Assembly (NCBI GenBank): GCA_905221505.1
Contig: CAJNDL010000005.1
Span: 3,151-67,150, forward strand
Direction of reading: 5' to 3'
From: a bacterium
GTDB lineage: Bacteria; Bacillota; Bacilli; Lactobacillales; Streptococcaceae
Length of the DNA: 64,000 nt
The position numbers and the translations under genes were made by a program. The notes under the pieces were generated by a model. That model saw only the letters and a program-made list of their open reading frames with translations. It ran no database searches and was not told where the DNA came from. This document shows positions 5,858-44,544 of the stretch, piece after piece. Each line of letters opens with the position of its first letter. Position 1 is the first letter of the stretch.

Positions 5858-6395
5858 TCAAATTCTCCAATAATCTTTTCTGATGATATTATACCACTAA
5901 AACGCTAACAATTAAACACTAACTATGTCCGAACTATCTAACGATTTAATTCCCTTTTAACGATTACATCTTTGGAATCTTAACAAGTTATACCATTATA
6001 ATTTGAAATCTATCTACACCCCTAAATAATACCAAAAAGCCTTCAAATTTTTAAGTTTCAAGGTTTTTACTGCATTAAATTGTAATATCTAACTTCTACT
6101 GTTTTCGAAGAGTATAATTTAATAACTTGAAAAAAATTCGAATACTCTCCTATACAACTGACAGCCCAAATCTTTCAGAATAGAACAATTCTAACTATCG
6201 AATAACTCAACTTCATAAATATCTATGTAATTCTAGACCTAGAATTCCTATAAACAAAATGTTTTCGCACTATTCTAAGCCATTGATTGCCTTAAGTTTT
6301 AATTTTTGAAGGATTCTAAAGCTAGAATAGTCCCATCACAATCTGTTTTGAATGATTCACAATTTAGAAACGCTATGATTCTACTCCTTTTACAT
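5858..6395. other. Non-coding AT-rich spacer at the right edge of the island
   Basis: About 540 nt without a credible gene. It contains a possible bidirectional hairpin at 6034-6068 (AAAAAGCCTT ... AAGGTTTTT) and two short palindromes built on AATTCTAG/CTAGAATT around 6231-6247 and 6313-6330. The promoter of the GmrSD-like gene should lie at the left end. Confidence 0.45.
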
Positions 6396-6424
6396 TAAAA
6401 AGGAACTGCTCAAGCAATCCCTTT
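6396..6424 (-). terminator. Terminator of dhaKLM
   Basis: On the minus strand, AAAGGGATTGCTTGAGCAGTTCCTTTTT folds into a GC-containing stem followed by a T run, about 80 nt after the dhaM stop codon. Confidence 0.65.
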
Positions 6425-6506
6425 CTGATTCTGTAATAATCTACTTAAAATTTGATAGTTGAGATAATCAATAGCCCACCTATAAAAAGAGTTATAGCAA
6501 AATTCC

Positions 6507-6881
6507 TTATTTATTGATTTCAAGCTCCGCCAACTGTGTTTGAATAACTGACAGTTCTGCCCCAGCCTGAAGAAGAGCAGCTGCAGTATAGGCACCTTCT
6601 ACAATTGGAACACTGTTGATGATGATACTCTTATCACTGAAATCAGCCACCATTTCTAAATTCATTTTAGCAGAACCTAGGTCAAAAAAGGCAAGTAAAG
6701 TATCTGCTGGATTTTCGGAAACAACCCTATCTACTTGATCAAAACTAGTTCCAATTCCTCCGTCCTCGGTTCCTCCTACATAAGTAATCGGAACATCTTT
6801 AGCCACTTCACTAATCAGTTCAACAAGACCTTGTGCAATGTGTTTGGAATGTGAAACGATAACAAGACCAATACTTCCCAT
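6507..6881 (-). CDS. dhaM: PTS-dependent dihydroxyacetone kinase phosphotransferase subunit DhaM
   Basis: A 124-aa single-domain protein with the EIIA-mannose fold. It begins MGSIGLVIVSHSKHIAQG, with His11 as the expected phosphorylation site. DhaM takes phosphate from HPr and passes it to the ADP bound in DhaL. Unlike enterobacterial DhaM, it has no fused HPr or enzyme I domain, which is normal in Firmicutes. The glycine-rich YVGGTEDGGIGTSFDQV segment follows the family pattern. Its start codon overlaps the dhaL stop by one base, so the two are translationally coupled. Confidence 0.93.
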   Translation of the reverse strand: MGSIGLVIVSHSKHIAQGLVELISEVAKDVPITYVGGTEDGGIGTSFDQVDRVVSENPADTLLAFFDLGSAKMNLEMVADFSDKSIIINSVPIVEGAYTAAALLQAGAELSVIQTQLAELEINK

Positions 6882-7456
6882 TAAACCACCCCAGTTTCTA
6901 AAAGAGCAGTAAAGAGTAATCCTGATGAAAATGATCCAGGGTCAATATGTCCGAGAGATCGCTCTCCTACATAAGATGCTCTTCCTTTAGTTGCAAGTAA
7001 ATCTTTGGTAGCATTCACTACCTGATCAATAACCTCTTGAGTCAACTGGCCATCAGACAAGGCAGCAATAACAGGAGTCCAAACATCAACCATTGTCTTT
7101 TCTCCAACTTCTGCTTTCCCACGTTTGACAATCATATCCAAACCGCTTTGTAAGATTTCTTCTAATTTCGAATTTGAATCAGCCTTGGCCATGCCCATAA
7201 AAGCAGAGCCATACAGAGGACCAGAAGCACCGCCTACCTTACTCAGTAGTTGCATTGAGACAAGTTTAAAAACATCACTGCTTGTCTCAAATTGCTTTCC
7301 TTCTAAGTTTTCCATAACTGCAGCCATGCCACGCGCCATATTTCCACCGTGGTCTCCATCTCCTATAGGAGTGTCTAGCTCACTAAGGTAATCTTTCTGT
7401 TCTTGAATCTTTTCATTAAAAAGCTTCATCCATTCAAGAGCTTGTTCAGCATTCAT
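6881..7456 (-). CDS. dhaL: Dihydroxyacetone kinase ADP-binding subunit DhaL
   Basis: A 191-aa all-helical subunit that holds ADP-Mg as a permanent cofactor and phosphorylates dihydroxyacetone bound to DhaK. The metal-binding motif DTPIGDGDHGGNM gives Asp28, Asp33 and Asp35. The loop GGASGPLYGSAF and the motif RASYVGERSLGHIDPG are typical. It lies between dhaK and dhaM in the usual order and overlaps dhaM by one nucleotide. Confidence 0.95.
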   Translation of the reverse strand: MNAEQALEWMKLFNEKIQEQKDYLSELDTPIGDGDHGGNMARGMAAVMENLEGKQFETSSDVFKLVSMQLLSKVGGASGPLYGSAFMGMAKADSNSKLEEILQSGLDMIVKRGKAEVGEKTMVDVWTPVIAALSDGQLTQEVIDQVVNATKDLLATKGRASYVGERSLGHIDPGSFSSGLLFTALLETGVV

Positions 7457-7477
7457 TTGACATTTCCTCCTAAAGTT

Positions 7478-8467
7478 TTACCAAGCTGGTGTAGTAACAG
7501 GTGCATTTAGAGCATCCAACCACTCATCATCTGCCAATCGTATCAATGTTAATGACAATCCAGCCATATCAATTGAGGTCATATAGTTCCCAATTTTCTT
7601 AAATGCCAACTGAACACCTTTTTCATGGAGTAATTTTGCCACATCATTTGCAAATACATATTGTTCCATAAGAGGCGTGCTTCCTAAACCATTGATGAGA
7701 AGGCCATAGCGTTCACCAGCTTTAAGTTGGAAACCTTCAGATAATTTTTCAACCAATTCTGAAGCCAATTGTGCTGAAGGTTGCATTTTCTCTTTTTTAT
7801 ACCCTGGCTCACCGTGAATACCAACTCCATATTCAAATTCATCGTCTTCTAGAACAAATCCTGGTTTGCCAACTTCAGGAACGGTTGCACCAGACAAGGC
7901 CAGCCCAATTGTTTTAATTTCTAACACAATTTTATCTGCCAAATCCTTCATTTCAGCTAATGATTTACCAGAACGAGCCGCAGCACCCAAAATTTTATGA
8001 ACTAAAATAGTACCTGCAACACCTCGACGACCTTGGGTATAGAGACTATTTTCAACAGCGATATCATCATCAACCACAACACTTGCTACATCAATACCTT
8101 CCATTTCAGCAAGTTCTTGTGCAATTTCAAAGTTCATGATATCACCAGAATAGTTCTTGATAACCATGAAAACCCCAGCACCTTCATCAGCTACCTTAAT
8201 AGCCTCTAAAATTTGGTCTGGAGTAGGTGAGGTAAAGACTGCGCCACAAATGGCAGCAGACAGCATTCCTTCTCCTACAAATCCAGCATGACTTGGTTCA
8301 TGTCCTGAACCTCCACCTGAAATGAGTCCAACTTTTCCTGTCTTTTCTGCCTTTCTAACGATGACATCAAAACCATCTAAACGTTCTACCAAGTCATCAT
8401 GCATGAATGATAACCCCTGCAACATTTCATCAACAACTTGTGTCGGTTCATTTATAATTTTTTTCAT
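7478..8467 (-). CDS. dhaK: Dihydroxyacetone kinase substrate-binding subunit DhaK
   Basis: A 329-aa subunit that binds dihydroxyacetone covalently as a hemiaminal. The residues involved are visible: His56 in GGGSGHEPSH, Asp109 in NYSGDIMNF and the nucleophilic His218 in GVGIHGEPGY. With DhaL and DhaM it forms the PTS-driven kinase that makes dihydroxyacetone phosphate for glycolysis. It is the first gene of dhaKLM and diverges from dhaS, with the promoter and DhaS-type operator between them. Confidence 0.96.
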   Translation of the reverse strand: MKKIINEPTQVVDEMLQGLSFMHDDLVERLDGFDVIVRKAEKTGKVGLISGGGSGHEPSHAGFVGEGMLSAAICGAVFTSPTPDQILEAIKVADEGAGVFMVIKNYSGDIMNFEIAQELAEMEGIDVASVVVDDDIAVENSLYTQGRRGVAGTILVHKILGAAARSGKSLAEMKDLADKIVLEIKTIGLALSGATVPEVGKPGFVLEDDEFEYGVGIHGEPGYKKEKMQPSAQLASELVEKLSEGFQLKAGERYGLLINGLGSTPLMEQYVFANDVAKLLHEKGVQLAFKKIGNYMTSIDMAGLSLTLIRLADDEWLDALNAPVTTPAW

Positions 8468-8506
8468 GAGAAACTCCTTTCGGCATCTACCTTTGTTTTC
8501 GCTTTC

Positions 8507-8535
8507 ATTATATATTTTTTATTGCTGGCTGATAA
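8507..8535 (-). promoter_or_regulatory. dhaKLM promoter
   Basis: On the minus strand a -35 TTATCA (8530-8535) and a -10 TATAAT (8507-8512) are 17 nt apart. The weak -35 and an operator immediately upstream fit an activator-dependent promoter. Confidence 0.6.
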
Positions 8536-8536
8536 G

Positions 8537-8558
8537 GGACAGATTCTATTATTTGTCC
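8537..8558. promoter_or_regulatory. DhaS operator
   Basis: The inverted repeat GGACAGAT-N6-ATTTGTCC differs by one base from the DhaS box I recall for Lactococcus lactis (GGACACAT-N6-ATTTGTCC). It lies directly upstream of the dhaK -35 and about 60 nt before dhaS, so it could serve both directions. Confidence 0.75.
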
Positions 8559-8620
8559 CCTTTTAAACCCGTTTCAAGCATTTTTTTGGTAAAATGAAGG
8601 AAGTAAAAGAAAGGTTTCCT

Positions 8621-9151
8621 ATGGCATCATCACTCATTACAAAAAAACGGATTGCCAAGGCATTTAGAGACCTATTAGCTACTAGAGAATTTGATAAAAT
8701 CTCTATTGTAGAGATCATGGAATCAGCTGGCATTCGTAGACAGACCTTTTATAATCACTTTCTTGACAAATATGAACTGCTAGACTGGATATTTGAAAAT
8801 GACCTAACTGAGTATATCACCAATAACTTGGACTTCATTTCAGGCCAAAAACTATTACAAGAATTATTTTTTTATTTCGAACAAGAGCGTGACTTTTATA
8901 TTCAACTTTTTGATATTCAAGGGCAAAATAACTTCTATGACCACTTTATCAGCTACTGTCGCTTGCTTGTATCAAAAATTTTAAGAGAATATGGTCAGAT
9001 TGATATCGATTCATCTGCTTATACTTGTTTTTTGTTAGACTATCATTCACATGCTCTAGCAGAAATCGTGAAGGCTTACGTCAATAAAAAAAGTCCAGTT
9101 CCACAACCAGACTTTCTAATCATGACAATTATTGGAAAGAGACCACAATGA
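8621..9151 (+). CDS. dhaS: TetR-family activator of the dha operon, DhaS
   Basis: A 176-aa protein with an N-terminal TetR helix-turn-helix (ITKKRIAKAFRDLLATREFD ... RRQTFYNHFLDKYELLDWIF). The start at 8621 is preferred because GAAAGG lies just upstream; an in-frame ATG at 8594 would add nine residues over that site. In L. lactis, DhaS binds DhaQ loaded with dihydroxyacetone and activates dhaKLM. The neighbouring dhaQ and the matching operator make the same circuit likely here. It overlaps dhaQ by 4 nt. Confidence 0.9.
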   Translation: MASSLITKKRIAKAFRDLLATREFDKISIVEIMESAGIRRQTFYNHFLDKYELLDWIFENDLTEYITNNLDFISGQKLLQELFFYFEQERDFYIQLFDIQGQNNFYDHFISYCRLLVSKILREYGQIDIDSSAYTCFLLDYHSHALAEIVKAYVNKKSPVPQPDFLIMTIIGKRPQ

Positions 9152-10137
9152 CATTTATTTCAAATCATAAACAGAAAATTATTTCAAGTTACATTTCGGC
9201 AACTGTCAGCAGTCATCCTGAATTAGAAAAACACCCTACCTTGCCATTAGTCTATCAAAAAAATCGCAATCCTCTTCAGGTTCCAATATTGTCGGGTGGA
9301 GGTTCAGGTCACGAACCTGCTCATATTGGATATGTGGGAGAAGGAATGCTTACTGCTGCTATCTATGGCCAATTATTTACTCCACCTACCAGAACTGAAA
9401 TCTTAGAGTCCATTCGTTTTTTAAACAATGGTCACGGTGTCTTCATCATTGTAAAAAATTTCGAAGCAGACATCAAAGAATTTAGCTCTGCCATTAACAC
9501 TGCTAGAAAAGAAGGAATTAAAGTCGGCTATAGTCTAGCACACGACGATATTTCAATTGAACCTCACAATAGATTTCAAATTAGAGGAAGAGGGCTTGCA
9601 GGGACAATTTTACTGCATAAAATTCTAGGATTTGCAGCTCAAAATGGTGCCGACATAGAACAACTAACCGATTTAGGTCATCAACTTGCTCCCGAAATCG
9701 CAACGATTGGCTTTGCAAGGAAATCCGCTAGTCTACCCCAAACCACCCTTCCACTATTTAACTTGGAAGAAGGAAATATTTCCTATGGTATTGGGATACA
9801 TGGCGAAGAAGGATATCGTATCGTCCCATTTCAATCTTCGGAAATCCTTGCAAATGAAATTATAAGTAAATTAAGATTACACTATCATTGGAAAAAGAGG
9901 GATCAATTTATATTGCTTGTAAATAATCTAGGTACTACTAGCAACCTAGAAATGGGCATCTTTACCAATGATCTCCTTCAACTCTTAGAAATTGAAGGAG
10001 TCACTATTACATTTATAAAATCAGGAACATTTATGACCAGTCTAGATATGGCAGGTATATCCGTAACTCTTTGCCCTGCGAAAAATAAACAATGGTTAGA
10101 AGCACTTAATGCTCCAACAACAGCTTTTGCATGGTAA
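9148..10137 (+). CDS. dhaQ: DhaK paralogue DhaQ, co-activator of the dha operon
   Basis: A 329-aa paralogue of DhaK, translated from an ATGA overlap with dhaS. It keeps the dihydroxyacetone-binding residues His55 (GGGSGHEPAH), Asp108 and His218 (GIGIHGEEGY), yet is clearly diverged (for example SLAHDDISIEPHNRFQIRG). In L. lactis, DhaQ binds dihydroxyacetone but serves as a sensor that docks on DhaS rather than as a kinase subunit. Pairing with dhaS and separation from dhaL support that assignment. Confidence 0.88.
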   Translation: MTFISNHKQKIISSYISATVSSHPELEKHPTLPLVYQKNRNPLQVPILSGGGSGHEPAHIGYVGEGMLTAAIYGQLFTPPTRTEILESIRFLNNGHGVFIIVKNFEADIKEFSSAINTARKEGIKVGYSLAHDDISIEPHNRFQIRGRGLAGTILLHKILGFAAQNGADIEQLTDLGHQLAPEIATIGFARKSASLPQTTLPLFNLEEGNISYGIGIHGEEGYRIVPFQSSEILANEIISKLRLHYHWKKRDQFILLVNNLGTTSNLEMGIFTNDLLQLLEIEGVTITFIKSGTFMTSLDMAGISVTLCPAKNKQWLEALNAPTTAFAW

Positions 10138-10153
10138 TTTGCTTGTATAACTC

Positions 10154-10183
10154 AAAAGGGCTACATAACTTGGTAGCCCTTTT
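10154..10183 (+). terminator. Terminator of dhaSQ
   Basis: An 11-bp perfect stem AAAAGGGCTAC / GTAGCCCTTTT with an 8-nt loop, 17 nt after the dhaQ stop. It would work in both directions. Confidence 0.85.
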
Positions 10184-10198
10184 AAACTTATATAACGT

Positions 10199-10276
10199 TT
10201 AGATGAAACGGTTGAACTTCTCATAGTTTTCCTTAGAGGCTAGCACCAGCTCCTCTTTTGTTTTTGGTCTAGGCAC
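10199..10276 (-). pseudogene. Stump of a ClbS/DfsB-family gene
   Basis: A 25-codon minus-strand frame from a GTG reads VPRPKTKEELVLASKENYEK then FNRFI and a stop. This resembles the conserved N-terminus of ClbS/DfsB (DUF1706) four-helix proteins, which are about 170 aa. A GGGAG site precedes the GTG. The rest of the gene is missing, so this is a relic next to the dhaSQ terminator. Confidence 0.55.
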
Positions 10277-38797: not shown

Positions 38798-39676
38798 TTA
38801 GCTAAAAACCTTTCTTGGCTTATAGAGATTGTCCCGTTTTTCTAGAATGGCTAGCAATTTATCGCCTTCAAAAGCAGCCAATTCTTGGTCTGTTTGGTCG
38901 AGCTCGATAAAACGACCAAAGCGCACTTCTGTAGCCTCTTCTGGACTTAGGAAAACTTTGACGAGGTCCCCTGTCCCAATCTCTAGAGGATGGAGAAAGT
39001 CTAATTGCCCAGCCTCCACTTTTGTAGCAATTTCTTCCAAGGTAAGAGCATCCTCCAGTTGTAAACCTGCCGCACTAGTCCGTGTCAGATGTGACATATG
39101 GGCTGCATAACCAAGCTTCTCTCCCAAGTCAACTGACAAAGTACGGATATAAGTTCCCTTACTGCATTTCACACGAAAAGTAAAGCGTGCAAGTTCTCCG
39201 TCATAAGAAATCGGACTTGTTCGTTCAAATTGATAAATGGTCACCTGACGTTCTGGACGTTCCACTTCCTGACCAGCACGCGCATACTCATAAAGCTTAC
39301 GACCATTGACCTTGACAGCCGAGTACATAGGCGGAATCTGGGTAATAGACCCAGTCAAATTGGCTATCGCTTCATCAACAAGATTTTCATCCAAGGGCGA
39401 CAAAACAGGGGCCTCTTCGACCACTTCCCCACTAGCATCCTCTGTCGTCGTTGAATAGCCGAGAGTAATCTCCCCCACATAGACCTTACCCTCATCCTGC
39501 ATGAACTCGACCATGCGTGTCGCCTTGCCAACCGCAATCGGCAAAACACCCACTACATCCGGATCCAAGGTCCCACCATGACCAATTTTCTTAGTTCCCA
39601 AAATCTTACGCAGTTTAAAAACCGCATCATGCGAGGTCATCCCCGCTTCTTTTTTTAAGTTGATAATACCGTTCAT
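38798..39676 (-). CDS. truB: tRNA pseudouridine-55 synthase TruB
   Basis: A 292-aa enzyme that forms pseudouridine 55 in the T loop. The catalytic aspartate lies in [19 protein letters not shown]. It starts 19 nt after the AAA+ ATPase gene of the accessory operon, so that operon may read into truB. Confidence 0.97.
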
Positions 39677-39695
39677 TTTTGCTTTCTAATTTCAT

Positions 39696-40781
39696 TCATA
39701 AAATATCTTCTTCAAGAATTGTAATGTAATTATCTTTTGTAACAAAAGATAGTGTGGCTAATCTTATTGCTTGGTTCATAATTATCCTGTCAAATACATT
39801 TCTTACAAATCGCCCATTTGCATTTTTATTTTCAGGATTGCAACTATGTAATTCTAAATATTTTTTTAATTTTTCTTTTGCAGAATCATGCAAAATGTAC
39901 TCTTCAATTTTGCAATATGAAAGAAAAATATCAAACATTTGGTCCACAGTATAATCTTCAAACGTAATAAAATAATTAAATCTTGATTTTAACCCAGGAT
40001 TAGATTCAAAAAATTTTTTCATTAATTCATCATATCCAGCAACAATAACCACCAAATCATCACGATAATCTTCTAATGCTTTTGTTAACTCAGTTAAACA
40101 CTCTCGACCATAACTATCACTTTTATCGTTTTCAGTAATACTATATGCTTCATCAATAAACAATACACCACCTTTGGCTTTTTGTATCAATCTCTTCACT
40201 TTCGAAGCCGTCTGTCCTTGATATTCTGCTATTAAGTCTGTTCTACTTGCCTCTATAAAGTGACCTTTACTTAGTATTCCTAGAGAACGATACATATTAC
40301 CAACAATTCTAGCAACTGTTGTCTTACCAGTACCTGGATTACCTAAAAACGCCATATGCATAGTTCTATTTGTTTTTTTAAGACCGATTTTTTCTCTACT
40401 TTGTTGAACTTTATTAAATGCGACTAGATCTTCAATCTCTTTCTTCACATTTTCTAAACCTATTAATGACTTTAAATCATTTGCTAGTGCTTCAAATGAT
40501 TTATTATTTGTTTCTTTCAAAATCAAATAATTTGTATCAATAACTCTAGAGCCAAGATATTTATATAATAATTCCAATATGCTAGTTTGCTTATCTTTGA
40601 TTTTAGAGAATGTCTCTTTAGTAGTTAAGTTTCCTAATAGTTTTATAAACTCTAAGTCAGCATTTTTAACATTATTAACAATATCTTGAAGAATTACTTC
40701 TAATTCATAAGTACTATTTGTTAAATCATCCAGTTTTTTCACTTCCGATTTTAACAATTTTAAATAAGTTTCACTAATCAT
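39696..40781 (-). CDS. CbbX/EccA-like AAA+ ATPase of a three-gene accessory operon
   Basis: A 361-aa protein. A helical N-terminal region (1-100) precedes a complete AAA+ module: Walker A GNPGTGKT (147-154), a pore-loop candidate AEYQGQT (185-191), Walker B VLFIDEAY (206-213), sensor 1 near VIVAGY (245-250), the arginine finger in NPGLKSRF (Arg267) and sensor 2 in NGRFVRNVFD (Arg324). This is the CbxX/CfqX/SpoVK/EccA branch, whose members remodel or unfold protein partners. Its ATG follows the preceding stop directly (TAGATG), so translation is coupled. It is AT-rich beside truB. The client is probably one of its two operon partners (inference). Confidence 0.88.
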   Translation of the reverse strand: MISETYLKLLKSEVKKLDDLTNSTYELEVILQDIVNNVKNADLEFIKLLGNLTTKETFSKIKDKQTSILELLYKYLGSRVIDTNYLILKETNNKSFEALANDLKSLIGLENVKKEIEDLVAFNKVQQSREKIGLKKTNRTMHMAFLGNPGTGKTTVARIVGNMYRSLGILSKGHFIEASRTDLIAEYQGQTASKVKRLIQKAKGGVLFIDEAYSITENDKSDSYGRECLTELTKALEDYRDDLVVIVAGYDELMKKFFESNPGLKSRFNYFITFEDYTVDQMFDIFLSYCKIEEYILHDSAKEKLKKYLELHSCNPENKNANGRFVRNVFDRIIMNQAIRLATLSFVTKDNYITILEEDIL

Positions 40782-41582
40782 CTACATTCCTTTAAACAAT
40801 AGAAATAATACTATTATAACAACAGCGACTCCAAGAGTATAGAATCCTTTTCTAAGGAAACTAATCTCTTTTTGTTTTTCCTCTAGTTCAGTTTGAAATT
40901 TCTCGACAATTAAAGTAAGATTTTTACCTTCCTCTATTAATCGAACATTCATCTTGTCTACATCGTTTTTAAGATTATTTTGTGTTTCTTCAACTTGTAA
41001 ATGCAAATCGTTAAAACTATTTTCTATTTTCACTAATGATTTTAGCTTCGCTTTTAAACTATCAATTTCAATTTGAATTTCACTTTGCTTATCTTCAAGT
41101 TGTTCTAACTCTTCTAGCTTGTTATGATGTTTCTTCAATATATCAATTAAATCTTTATTCTGTTTAAAAACATCATCTAATAATTTTTTATTACCAGTTT
41201 GATATTCTTCTATTTCGTGCAATCCCTGTATAGCTTTATTATTTGCCTCTTTGGCTGCAATCAAAGATTTTGAAATACTTTGAATATACTCATCATCCAA
41301 TATTTGGAAAGTTTCGTAAATAGTATTAAATTCTTGAATAATCTTTTTTATGTGAATATTTTGTTCAATCATTCTATTTTGAACAGCATCAGTAAGAGCG
41401 TTCAAATCTTTACCCTTAACATCATATTCCATTCCAATAAATCCTAACATAGGATCATCTGTTGGAACTGTTGGTAAATCTGACTGTTCAGGGATCTCTT
41501 CACTAAAGGCTTTTAGCTCTTGTTTTTTTTCATTAAATCTTTCAGAATTTGCTAAAACTTGAATCTCTAATTCTTCTGACAT
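40782..41582 (-). CDS. Coiled-coil protein with C-terminal membrane anchor
   Basis: A 266-aa acidic protein. Residues 1-60 are low in structure and contain a proline-rich patch (EQSDLPTVPTDDPM). Residues 60-240 are almost entirely heptad-like coiled coil rich in Glu, Lys, Leu and Ile. One hydrophobic helix at about 246-263 (YTLGVAVVIIVLFLLF) ends the protein, giving a tail-anchored layout with the coil facing the cytoplasm. No family is recognised. It is the middle gene of the accessory operon, coupled to the ATPase by adjacent stop and start codons and 9 nt from the HNH-like gene. Confidence 0.8.
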   Translation of the reverse strand: MSEELEIQVLANSERFNEKKQELKAFSEEIPEQSDLPTVPTDDPMLGFIGMEYDVKGKDLNALTDAVQNRMIEQNIHIKKIIQEFNTIYETFQILDDEYIQSISKSLIAAKEANNKAIQGLHEIEEYQTGNKKLLDDVFKQNKDLIDILKKHHNKLEELEQLEDKQSEIQIEIDSLKAKLKSLVKIENSFNDLHLQVEETQNNLKNDVDKMNVRLIEEGKNLTLIVEKFQTELEEKQKEISFLRKGFYTLGVAVVIIVLFLLFKGM

Positions 41583-41591
41583 AACATTCTC

Positions 41592-43262
41592 CTATAATAA
41601 ATCGTTTAATGCATTTTGCATTTCTTCAAGTTCACTTTGCTTTTCATCAAAGTAAATTTCATTAGCTAATAATCGCTGTTTGAAATCAATCTTTAAATTA
41701 GAAAACTCTTCATCAACATTGCCAAGTAGTTCTCTTAGTTTTTGATGGTTCTTAGCCATCTTACTGAAGATATCATTTCGCTTAACAGCAACATTTTGCT
41801 CGGCAACAAAAATTTGAACATCCTGAATTCTTAGCAATTCGTTCTTCTTATTAGCTTGTTTCTTTTGATTTTCCTCAATTAACTTTCTGGAAATAAATTG
41901 ATCAATTCCATTAATAATTATTGCTCCCAAAATTCCGGTTAGTAAACTAGCTAAAAACATTCCTAGAATATTTGCAATTTTTCCTAAATATTTAATTTCT
42001 TTATTGAAGGCTTTTATTTTTTTAAAATAATTTTCAAAATACTCTCCTAAAAACATTGCTCCTACACCTACTAATGCAGAAATAATGATTTTTGAAATAT
42101 GGGCAATTTTAATCTCAGTAGAATGAGACTGGTTTTCAGGGTTTGATAAATAAGAAATACTTTCTCTTATTGAGCCAAATATTTGTTTAACTACGTTTGT
42201 GATTTTTTGAAGTTTTTGATTGATTGCTCCAATAATTTCCCCCACTATACTTCCAACAAAACTGTCTACACCCACTTTAATAAAATCTCTAATTTTACCA
42301 AAGAAGGAATGAAGTGCATTTTTCATTTCATCTAAGAATGTATCAAACGATCGTTTTTTAGATTTAAAAAAACGAACCAAAGCATTCATTATTTCTTTCA
42401 ACATCCCAAATAACGCTGCAACAAACATAGCTTTAACTGCGTCTTTACCTGCCTTGTTCGCCATTCTAACCGCAGCTTTCTTTGCTATTGGTTTATACAT
42501 AGCTTTCTTTGCACTTTTTTCAGCTTTAATCATCTTATCTGAATCAGCAGCCAATTTATCATTTAATTTTTTATTATTTTCAGCCTTAAGATTTCGCTTT
42601 TCGGCATCCGAGATATTCATCTTATCAATTTTTTTATTAGCTCTTTCAACTTGTTCTTTTAGATTTTTTTCTCTCGCTTCTCTATTCTTTATATAGTCAC
42701 TATTTGATGTTGCTCCTTTACTTTTATTCAGCGATTCATTAGTTGCTGCAAAATTTTCCTTTTTATTTGCTAAATCAGCAGTTTCAATATCTGCAATTTT
42801 CCTCCATGTGTTTTCAAAAATCTGTTTTCTTGGTATGACGTGATCCAAATTAGCTTTTTCGTTAATTTTTATTGTTTTTCCAGTATATTCATCCTTTAAA
42901 TTTCCATTTTTTTGCCTTTCTTTCATAGCATTATTTGCATCAGTATACCTTTTATCTTTCATTATTTTAGCACCCTCTTCTTTTGTATAACCATTAGGAT
43001 TTTTATCGTTATACTGCTTAAGAAGCGTGTCGCTTGTCATATCTAAACCAATTTGGTTCGCAAATTGACTCCAAATTTCATCTAAAATGACATCTCCTAA
43101 TTTATCCGGTAAACTAATTTCTTTACATTCTAGTTCTAATTTCTCAAGATTAGAGAACTCCATTGTAAATTGCTGTTCCAATAGTTCTTCTAACTCATCA
43201 TAGTTTAAATTTTCAGACTCATTTACTTCTTCAGTATTCAATACTAATAATTCATTTTCCAC
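41592..43262 (-). CDS. Multi-helix membrane protein with an HNH-like nuclease motif
   Basis: A 556-aa protein starting at GTG 43262 behind GAGGAAG, 7 nt after the DUF2130 stop. An HNH-like core spans residues 122-183: DEYTGK, then NLDHVIPRKQIFEN (Asp140-His141) and ANKKENFAATNESLNKSKG with candidate Asn170. The zinc cysteines of many HNH domains are absent. A Lys-rich helical linker (190-270) leads to several hydrophobic helices near 276-298, 330-347, 386-408 and 426-456; the last 100 residues are coiled coil. A membrane-tethered nuclease is the simplest reading, but activity is unproven. I know no named family with this architecture. Confidence 0.72.
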   Translation of the reverse strand: MENELLVLNTEEVNESENLNYDELEELLEQQFTMEFSNLEKLELECKEISLPDKLGDVILDEIWSQFANQIGLDMTSDTLLKQYNDKNPNGYTKEEGAKIMKDKRYTDANNAMKERQKNGNLKDEYTGKTIKINEKANLDHVIPRKQIFENTWRKIADIETADLANKKENFAATNESLNKSKGATSNSDYIKNREAREKNLKEQVERANKKIDKMNISDAEKRNLKAENNKKLNDKLAADSDKMIKAEKSAKKAMYKPIAKKAAVRMANKAGKDAVKAMFVAALFGMLKEIMNALVRFFKSKKRSFDTFLDEMKNALHSFFGKIRDFIKVGVDSFVGSIVGEIIGAINQKLQKITNVVKQIFGSIRESISYLSNPENQSHSTEIKIAHISKIIISALVGVGAMFLGEYFENYFKKIKAFNKEIKYLGKIANILGMFLASLLTGILGAIIINGIDQFISRKLIEENQKKQANKKNELLRIQDVQIFVAEQNVAVKRNDIFSKMAKNHQKLRELLGNVDEEFSNLKIDFKQRLLANEIYFDEKQSELEEMQNALNDLL

Positions 43263-43269
43263 TGCTTCC

Positions 43270-44544
43270 TCATTCCCCCTTCAGTGCTTCAAATTTCGCT
43301 TTCATAGTTGGATTTTTCCGAGTTAATTTTTTGACGGAGACATCTTCCAGTTTGTTGTTTGCAAGACGGAGTTGGTTTTCGGATGTGGTTAGGAACTTCT
43401 TAACCTCTTCCATGCGTTTGATAGCCTTGTCGATTTCATCGATAGCTTTGCCAAAGTTGGTCGAAGCTGAATTGTAGTTCTTAGCAAAAGCTAGTTTAAA
43501 GGCATCCAAGTCTTCTTCAAAATGTGTAATATCAATGTTTTGTTCACGCACCAAGGCCAGCTCCTGCTTGTATTTAAGAGAATTAAGCGCCGCATTACGC
43601 AAGAGACCAATCAGCTGGATAAAGAACTGAGGACGAACCACATACATCTTTTCATACTCGTGACTAACGTCAACAATCCCTGTGTTAAAGTAGTCGTTAT
43701 CTGCCTCAAGCATGGTCACCAACACGGCATACTCACAGTTCTTTTCACGACGGTCCTTATCCAATTCCTTATAGAAATCTGCATTCTTGTGCTTCTTCTC
43801 TGTGCCGTCCGCTTCATTTTTCATCTCAAACATGATGGAAATGATTTCCACCCCATTTTCATCACTCTCACGGAAGATAAAGTCCCCTTTAGACCCACGC
43901 GCAGAAACCTTGTTATCCTTCTCAAAGTAAGCATTTGGAAAGGCAAAACTGCGGATCTTGTTAAACTCACTTTCTGCATACTGTTCCAGACTTTCCCCAA
44001 TCGCTTTTGTGGATTGTTGAGCCTTGAAATTCTTGTAAAATTCGACTTGTTCACTGGCTGCTTTAAGCTGGACTTCATAGTTTTGTTTAACAGAAGCCAA
44101 AGACAACTCATTTTCCTTTTCTTGTAATAGCAACTGATTTTTGACCTGATCTCGTTCTTTTTCAAGGTCAGAAAGGGTCTTTTGCAGTTGATTTTCATGC
44201 TCTAAACGCAAGGTGGCCAATTGGTTTTCCAAGGCCTGCACTTCCTTGTCCTTTGCTAATAAGGCCTCATGACTTGTCTGTTCAACTTCTTTCTTGGCCA
44301 ATTCTTTTTCTGTACCAAAGTTTTGGATTTGACTCTGCAATTGAGCAATTTCTTGGTCTTTTTGAGCCAGTTTAATCTGTTGTTCATTCATAGCCTTTTG
44401 CTCAGCCAAGGCCAGTTCCTGCTTCATGCGGTCGTGTAATTCCTTATCAAACTCTGCCGTTCTCACTTGGGACAAGAGTTCGGCATACTGGCTTTCATTT
44501 ACTGTAAAGACTTCCCCACAGTTAGGGCATTTGATTTCGTTCAT
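43270..44544 (-). CDS. DUF2130 protein (zinc ribbon, coiled coil, nuclease-like domain)
   Basis: A 424-aa protein. A small N-terminal zinc-ribbon half has IKCPNCGEVF, then a coiled coil runs over about residues 30-180. The C-terminal DUF2130 domain contains GSKGDFIFRE and IISIMFEMKNEADGTEKKHK, recalling the D...ExK pattern of PD-(D/E)XK and RmuC-like nucleases. The family is widespread in streptococci and its role is unsettled. It lies 7 nt upstream of the HNH-like membrane gene and so heads the same transcript. Confidence 0.85.
   Translation of the reverse strand: MNEIKCPNCGEVFTVNESQYAELLSQVRTAEFDKELHDRMKQELALAEQKAMNEQQIKLAQKDQEIAQLQSQIQNFGTEKELAKKEVEQTSHEALLAKDKEVQALENQLATLRLEHENQLQKTLSDLEKERDQVKNQLLLQEKENELSLASVKQNYEVQLKAASEQVEFYKNFKAQQSTKAIGESLEQYAESEFNKIRSFAFPNAYFEKDNKVSARGSKGDFIFRESDENGVEIISIMFEMKNEADGTEKKHKNADFYKELDKDRREKNCEYAVLVTMLEADNDYFNTGIVDVSHEYEKMYVVRPQFFIQLIGLLRNAALNSLKYKQELALVREQNIDITHFEEDLDAFKLAFAKNYNSASTNFGKAIDEIDKAIKRMEEVKKFLTTSENQLRLANNKLEDVSVKKLTRKNPTMKAKFEALKGE

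Follow-up and report, generated by a model that had tools for sequence, protein, structure and literature searches.

What are three tightly coupled genes doing between DUF2130 and truB in a streptococcal genome? The question is raised by a 64,000-nucleotide stretch from a member of the Streptococcaceae (contig CAJNDL010000005.1, positions 3,151 to 67,150; hereafter the window), in which all three genes are intact and lie on the minus strand, as do the features within and beside them described below. The first, P1 (41592..43262, GTG start), encodes a 556-residue membrane protein with a predicted HNH nuclease domain; the second, P2 (40782..41582), a 266-residue coiled coil anchored in the membrane at its C-terminus; and the third, P3 (39696..40781), a 361-residue AAA+ ATPase that domain and family comparisons place in the SpoVK/CbbX/EccA clade. 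All three are open reading frame (ORF) calls; DUF2130 (43270-44544) lies upstream of the trio and truB (38798-39676) downstream. Our preferred answer, to which we assign a probability of roughly 0.55, is that the trio is a mobile anti-phage or anti-mobile-element cassette built around a membrane-bound HNH nuclease that its own dedicated AAA+ chaperone assembles or arms.

The presumed effector is P1, whose HNH domain occupies residues 80-262 (42477..43025). In an alignment of 62 P1 homologues, N170 (codon 42753..42755), N179 and K182 are each present in every member, and D140 and H141 (codons 42840..42845) each in 60, a retention that holds though identity across the domain is only 15-58%. The predicted model of the domain (predicted local distance difference test score 96.7; predicted template modeling score 0.87) places a beta-beta-alpha fold around these residues and aligns mainly with HNH/beta-beta-alpha-metal nucleases, while BrxU provides a motif match to the core. 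Against Pfam HNH_4, P1 scores 17.2 bits, under the gathering score of 22, and two of the 62 members match this family at E up to 0.01. Together, alignment and model indicate that P1 carries a real HNH domain, in keeping with the HNH-like core proposed from D140-H141 and N170 in the initial annotation, and that a nuclease fold does cover residues 100-190. By extension, P1 is probably a metal-dependent nuclease that cleaves DNA. Two homologues (L142 and L167) have E or D in place of H141, and may be inactive or pseudoenzyme forms.

The DH...N...N..K motif and the domain fold are shared with BrxU, other HNH restriction nucleases and the HNH domain of Cas9, but P1 differs from these in fusing the domain to a membrane region and in lacking a DUF262 or RuvC domain. 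The helical membrane region spans approximately residues 270-480 (41823..42455). Three segments exceed the hydropathy cut-off, barely, such that the earlier description of several membrane helices stands as regards a membrane protein, with the number and exact position of the helices uncertain. P1 proteins end in acid-rich tails—residues 541-556 in the window (41595..41642)—where aspartate and glutamate account for 30% of the last 16 residues versus 16% of the remainder. The names under which P1 relatives are annotated, namely cobalamin adenosyltransferase, cation diffusion facilitator and ATPase, can be set aside: the relatives scanned with Pfam showed none of these domains.

P3 is the ATPase of the trio. 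It carries what we take to be Walker A (GNPGTGKTT, residues 147-155, 40317..40343) and Walker B (VLFIDE, residues 206-211, 40149..40166) motifs, combines AAA and AAA_lid_6 domains with a GY in sensor 1, and has CbbX (5e-75) and EccA1 (3.5e-61) as its closest solved relatives. An AAA core, AAA_lid_6 and the sensor-1 GY are the criterion for the SpoVK/CbbX/EccA clade in PMC10659427, and on its sequence P3 can be assigned to that clade. It is not a member of any of the named families, scoring 284.2, 235.4 and 220.4 bits against the NCBIfam models for SpoVK, CbbX and EccA, below the respective cut-offs of 422.95, 459.25 and 466.65, and its N-terminal region and operon partners also differ from theirs. 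The initial annotation of a complete CbbX/EccA-type ATPase was thus sound as to clade and intact domains, and too narrow if CbbX or EccA proper is meant. In the same paper, the clade is described as one of dedicated chaperones with narrow targets and without protease partners, and SpoVK as an activator of MurG. Because the clade comprises dedicated chaperones, we propose that P3 serves P1 or P2, and infer that it interacts with and acts on P1.

Do the three genes form a unit? Within the window their coupling is as strict as initially annotated: 7 nt separate the DUF2130 stop from the P1 GTG and 9 nt separate P1 from P2, P2 and P3 meet in TAGATG (0 nt), and P3 is followed by truB after 19 nt. 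For a wider survey, named genomes were scanned with an alignment of the AAA+ proteins and the best 80 of 540 loci were considered, a selection made by likeness to the trio AAA+ genes, in which the share with P1 is not that of all such ATPases. An intact P1 (>450 aa) lies upstream on the same strand in 61 of the 80, in the conserved order P1-(X)-P2-P3, where X is an additional small protein present at some loci; two more (L150 and L189, the latter a Fusobacteria metagenome-assembled genome) have P1 in two ORFs. The other 17 divide into six whose sequence runs out no more than 2.5 kb upstream of the AAA+ gene (L135, L138, L148, L157, L162, L178) and eleven in which P1 is absent (L133, L158, L196, L198-L205). 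Four Lysinibacillus loci among the latter (L196, L200, L201, L203) encode AAA+ proteins of 562-569 aa with a WYL-like gene nearby. By phylum, the 61 loci comprise 48 from Bacillota, eight from Bacteroidota, three from Spirochaetota, and one each from Lentisphaerota and Pseudomonadota. Six comparisons of trio genes with loci L022 and L023 all give a ratio of nonsynonymous to synonymous divergence (dN/dS) of 0.09-0.20, and the trio is under purifying selection. Such selection, and the recurrence of one gene order in many genera, argue that the association is not due to chance; the trio travels together, as the initial annotation had asked, and is one unit.

The survey also bears on P2 and X. In the window, the hydrophobic anchor of P2 comprises residues 247-265 (40788..40844), and the P2 of L126, the same in length and anchor position, has its maximum at residue 247. 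A hydrophobic segment falls within the last 29 residues of the ORF preceding the AAA+ gene in 53 of the 61 loci; six of the remainder are below the anchor cut-off (one by rounding) and two have no such ORF. The tail-anchored coiled coil first described for P2 is supported, and its C-terminal anchor recurs. At one Prevotellaceae locus (L139:4163-8902) the P2 position is taken by a 1579-aa protein, versus the usual 180-800 aa. X, found between P1 and the AAA+ gene in 21 of the 61 loci, is a protein of 85-165 aa with an N-terminal hydrophobic segment. Its tails resemble those of P1, 17 of 21 exceeding the 95% level of 360 neighbour ORFs, and it would be tempting to take this likeness as an argument that the tails are a chaperone handle. 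At some loci, however, X resembles the C-terminal part of P1 along its length (five ORFs, 118-146 aa or less, E <1e-3), and within a locus X and P1 are no less similar in their bodies than in their tails, so that shared descent is enough to explain it. CbbX acts on the C-terminus of its Rubisco target, and it is by this analogy that we offer, as a guess, the acidic tails of P1 and X as a handle for P3.

If the trio is a unit, is it a mobile one? P1 is sporadic in Streptococcus, detected in 14 of 197 genomes at E 0.001. Of these, 13 loci were viewed, G105 (a weak match on a 3.4-kb contig) being left out: P1, P2 and P3 stand in order in ten, with two overlapping ORFs making up P2 in L028; the other three (L024, L025, L026) have decayed, all at DUF2130-truB. 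L025 and L026 share a 303-aa remnant in which the start of P1 is joined to a piece of P3. Five of the 13 loci occupy the DUF2130-truB site and eight lie at other places. Across the order, P1 matches 16 of 295 genomes at E 0.001 (seven of them <1e-20), and across the phylum one of 398 at <1e-20. Of 7999 candidates in a protein search, 1753 scored as relatives; the 120 matches listed are all at least 91% identical. Two Lactococcus plasmids (L017 and L018, in the latter at 5926-10210) carry P1, X, P2 and the AAA+ gene, P1 being annotated as a cation diffusion facilitator.

A tree divides the trios into two subfamilies across a branch of 1.37 with support of 100/100. The window groups with S. mitis BCC45, Paenibacillus, Sporosarcina, Lachnospiraceae and Treponema socranskii; the other subfamily includes S. 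mitis SK564 with two further S. mitis, together with S. pneumoniae 19F (L187). Multiple changes of phylum on the tree are not in themselves proof of transfer, but the presence of both subfamilies in S. mitis, at different sites, fits it. Phages do not appear to be the usual carriers, P1 being found in only 2 of 77 viral AAA+ loci; a P1 relative does occur in six Aeromonas jumbo phage records.

GC content is ~25-33% across the trio against ~39-47% in the adjoining genes, but another stretch of the window, at 46.5-48 kb, is also low in GC (30-35%). Low GC is therefore insufficient as proof of transfer, and we rely instead on empty sites and on the divergence of cassette and flanks. Among nine related genomes compared, DUF2130 and truB are 9-11 nt apart in four (G001, G002, G009, G018), and in five (G003, G004, G008, G010, G014) other genes stand between them. 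The interval is a site of variable cargo: L071 holds three similar 270-280-aa proteins and more, and L072-L075 acetyltransferase- and hydrolase-like genes. G001 and G002 have a single copy of the 9-mer TAGAAAGCA at their empty sites. At filled sites it stands before truB (39680..39688 in the window), and a second copy precedes P1, intact in L025 and diverged in L022 and the window (43263..43271), an arrangement suggestive of a target duplication or of short homology where the cassette inserted. L023, from another species, holds the trio at the same site. DUF2130 and truB are 76% and 75% identical between window and L023, versus 80%, 94% and 87% for P1, P2 and P3; synonymous differences are 0.85 and 0.66 for the flanking genes and 0.46, 0.26 and 0.52 for the trio. 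Because the trio is more alike than its flanks, these sequences indicate that the cassette changed hands after the two species had diverged. The insertion of low-GC genes between DUF2130 and truB is accordingly borne out by ORFs, junctions, composition and empty sites. Far from being fixed in the mitis group with normal composition, the trio is sporadic and low in GC, and on this evidence appears to be a non-core, horizontally moved cassette.

The suggestion of a defence function comes from neighbours and relatives. PADLOC matches residues 95-514 of P1 to PDC-M40B (E 1.8e-8). Its matches to P2 and P3 are confined to generic families (coiled-coil and AAA). A P1 of subfamily II (L034) has no PDC-M40B match at E up to 0.01. 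PDC families are unvalidated candidates, as PMC12813430 explains. Relatives of P1 have recurrent partners among 13 Gram-negative or phage contexts (L019-L021, L106-L108, L293-L299): PDC-M09A in L019 and L021, and PDC-M40C in L020 and L108. The latter two pairs resemble the trio in that PDC-M40C is a coiled coil ending, by eye, in a hydrophobic segment as P2 does, but no AAA+ gene is annotated beside them and the P2 of the window does not match PDC-M40C at E up to 1. In L106, a P1 relative (PDC-M40B, 6.2e-62) directly follows JukA (E 2.4e-58), with a WYL gene preceding; L293 has the same gene labels, JukA being assigned there by label. Radical SAM and histidinol-phosphatase genes come after the JukA-P1 pair in both plasmids (L106:5317-9029, L293:4836-8050).

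A second link to Juk runs through P3. In seven Streptococcus genomes without P1, a P3 relative, 43-49% identical, directly follows a 343-355-aa JukB-like protein, the match to JukB covering part of the profile in all seven (E 8e-8 to 6e-11). This sister operon (L098:6465-9543, and L099-L104), which encodes a 209-220-aa protein, the JukB-like protein and a 430-465-aa AAA+ protein, is possibly a Gram-positive Juk-like system. According to PMC13282480, Juk acts at the entry compartment of the infecting phage: JukA is the sensor, located at the early infection vesicle, and JukB is recruited and forms pores. The trio is not itself Juk: P1, P2, P3 and DUF2130 have no JukA match, and P1 no JukB match, at E up to 1, none of the trio matches either protein, and P1 has an HNH domain where JukB forms pores.

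WYL proteins offer a further connection; the title of one paper presents them as regulators of defence systems. A WYL gene lies upstream in four of the 13 Gram-negative or phage contexts (L106, L293, L296, L298), and WYL-like genes occur in 11 of the 61 trio loci, directly upstream and co-oriented in eight. For defence islands we took the three nearest ORFs (at least 120 aa, within 5 kb) of 51 non-Streptococcus loci; WYL models matched 10-12 of 149 ORFs, in a weak scan that retained 149 of 152 ORFs (those of 1200 aa or more dropped) out of 360, and listed 25 of 234 PADLOC families without a control. Literature searches, some noisy and covering few subscription papers, returned no description of the AAA+ trio, and the text of an S. 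thermophilus defence paper (PMC11514479) contains none of the terms AAA, HNH, SpoVK, transmembrane or coiled. In sum, the initial annotation could match the trio to no named system: a candidate family now emerges for P1, and a named, tested system does not. The surface nucleases invoked there resemble P1 in idea only, as membrane-fixed nucleases meeting phage DNA on entry. SNIPE comprises DUF4041 plus GIY-YIG, and P1 shows neither in Pfam.

How might such a cassette work? P1 would sit in the membrane with its N-terminal HNH domain in the cytosol, and P2, anchored alongside, would scaffold or sense there. P3 would assemble P1, hold it inactive or activate it, perhaps by taking hold of its acidic C-terminal tail and, at loci that have X, of the tail of X as well. 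On infection, the putative trigger, P1 would cut DNA near the membrane; we prefer phage DNA as the target over plasmid, transforming or host DNA. More tentatively, and with clearly less conviction, this membrane-fixed HNH nuclease, armed by its own CbbX-type AAA+ protein gripping P1 and X tails, might belong to a modular immune superfamily acting at the point of phage DNA entry, whose membrane effectors (JukB pores or P1 nucleases) are paired interchangeably with sensors or chaperones (JukA, PDC-M09A, PDC-M40C, or P2 plus AAA+).

The alternative that survives best, although we consider it unlikely, is abortive infection, in which P1, once activated, turns on the chromosome or membrane of its own host, so that the infected cell is killed or arrested. 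An ATPase-controlled nuclease on a membrane protein, with a sporadic and decaying distribution, is what such a system might look like, and pore formation is reported for JukB, which partners JukA (PMC13282480). The same sequence data fit direct attack on phage DNA equally, and fixing a nuclease in the membrane would suggest a local target. Improbable, in our view, is a role in the envelope or in secretion, with P3 working on a membrane protein as EccA or SpoVK do and the HNH fold being structural. EccA1 and SpoVK, to which P3 is indeed related, have roles in secretion and in the synthesis of the envelope (PMC10659427), and the catalytic histidine is absent from 2 of 62 P1 proteins, but the HNH core is kept at low overall identity, P3 falls under the NCBIfam cut-offs for SpoVK, CbbX and EccA, and sporadic presence, empty sites, decay and Juk-derived partners all speak against such a role. 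Least probable is a barrier to plasmids or natural transformation that destroys DNA arriving by a conjugation or uptake channel: streptococci take up DNA, EndA, the membrane nuclease of DNA uptake, has a beta-beta-alpha-metal fold, and the structural neighbours of the P1 domain include a Vibrio periplasmic nuclease and endonuclease I, but no signal peptide precedes the HNH domain, which is most simply cytosolic, and relatives also occur in Lachnospiraceae, Bacteroidota and Aeromonas jumbo phages, with no tie to competence.

The trio is well conserved and widespread, has relatives among the existing PADLOC candidates, and would make sense as a new branch of immunity at the entry site. If our preferred reading of an armed, membrane-bound anti-phage nuclease is true, an energy-driven membrane nuclease would join a short list of immune systems known to work where phage DNA enters, and the poorly understood SpoVK/CbbX/EccA chaperone clade would gain a role in immunity. 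Juk-type logic would reach Gram-positive bacteria, oral streptococci included, and a function would be at hand for a family mislabelled in databases as cobalamin adenosyltransferase or cation diffusion facilitator.

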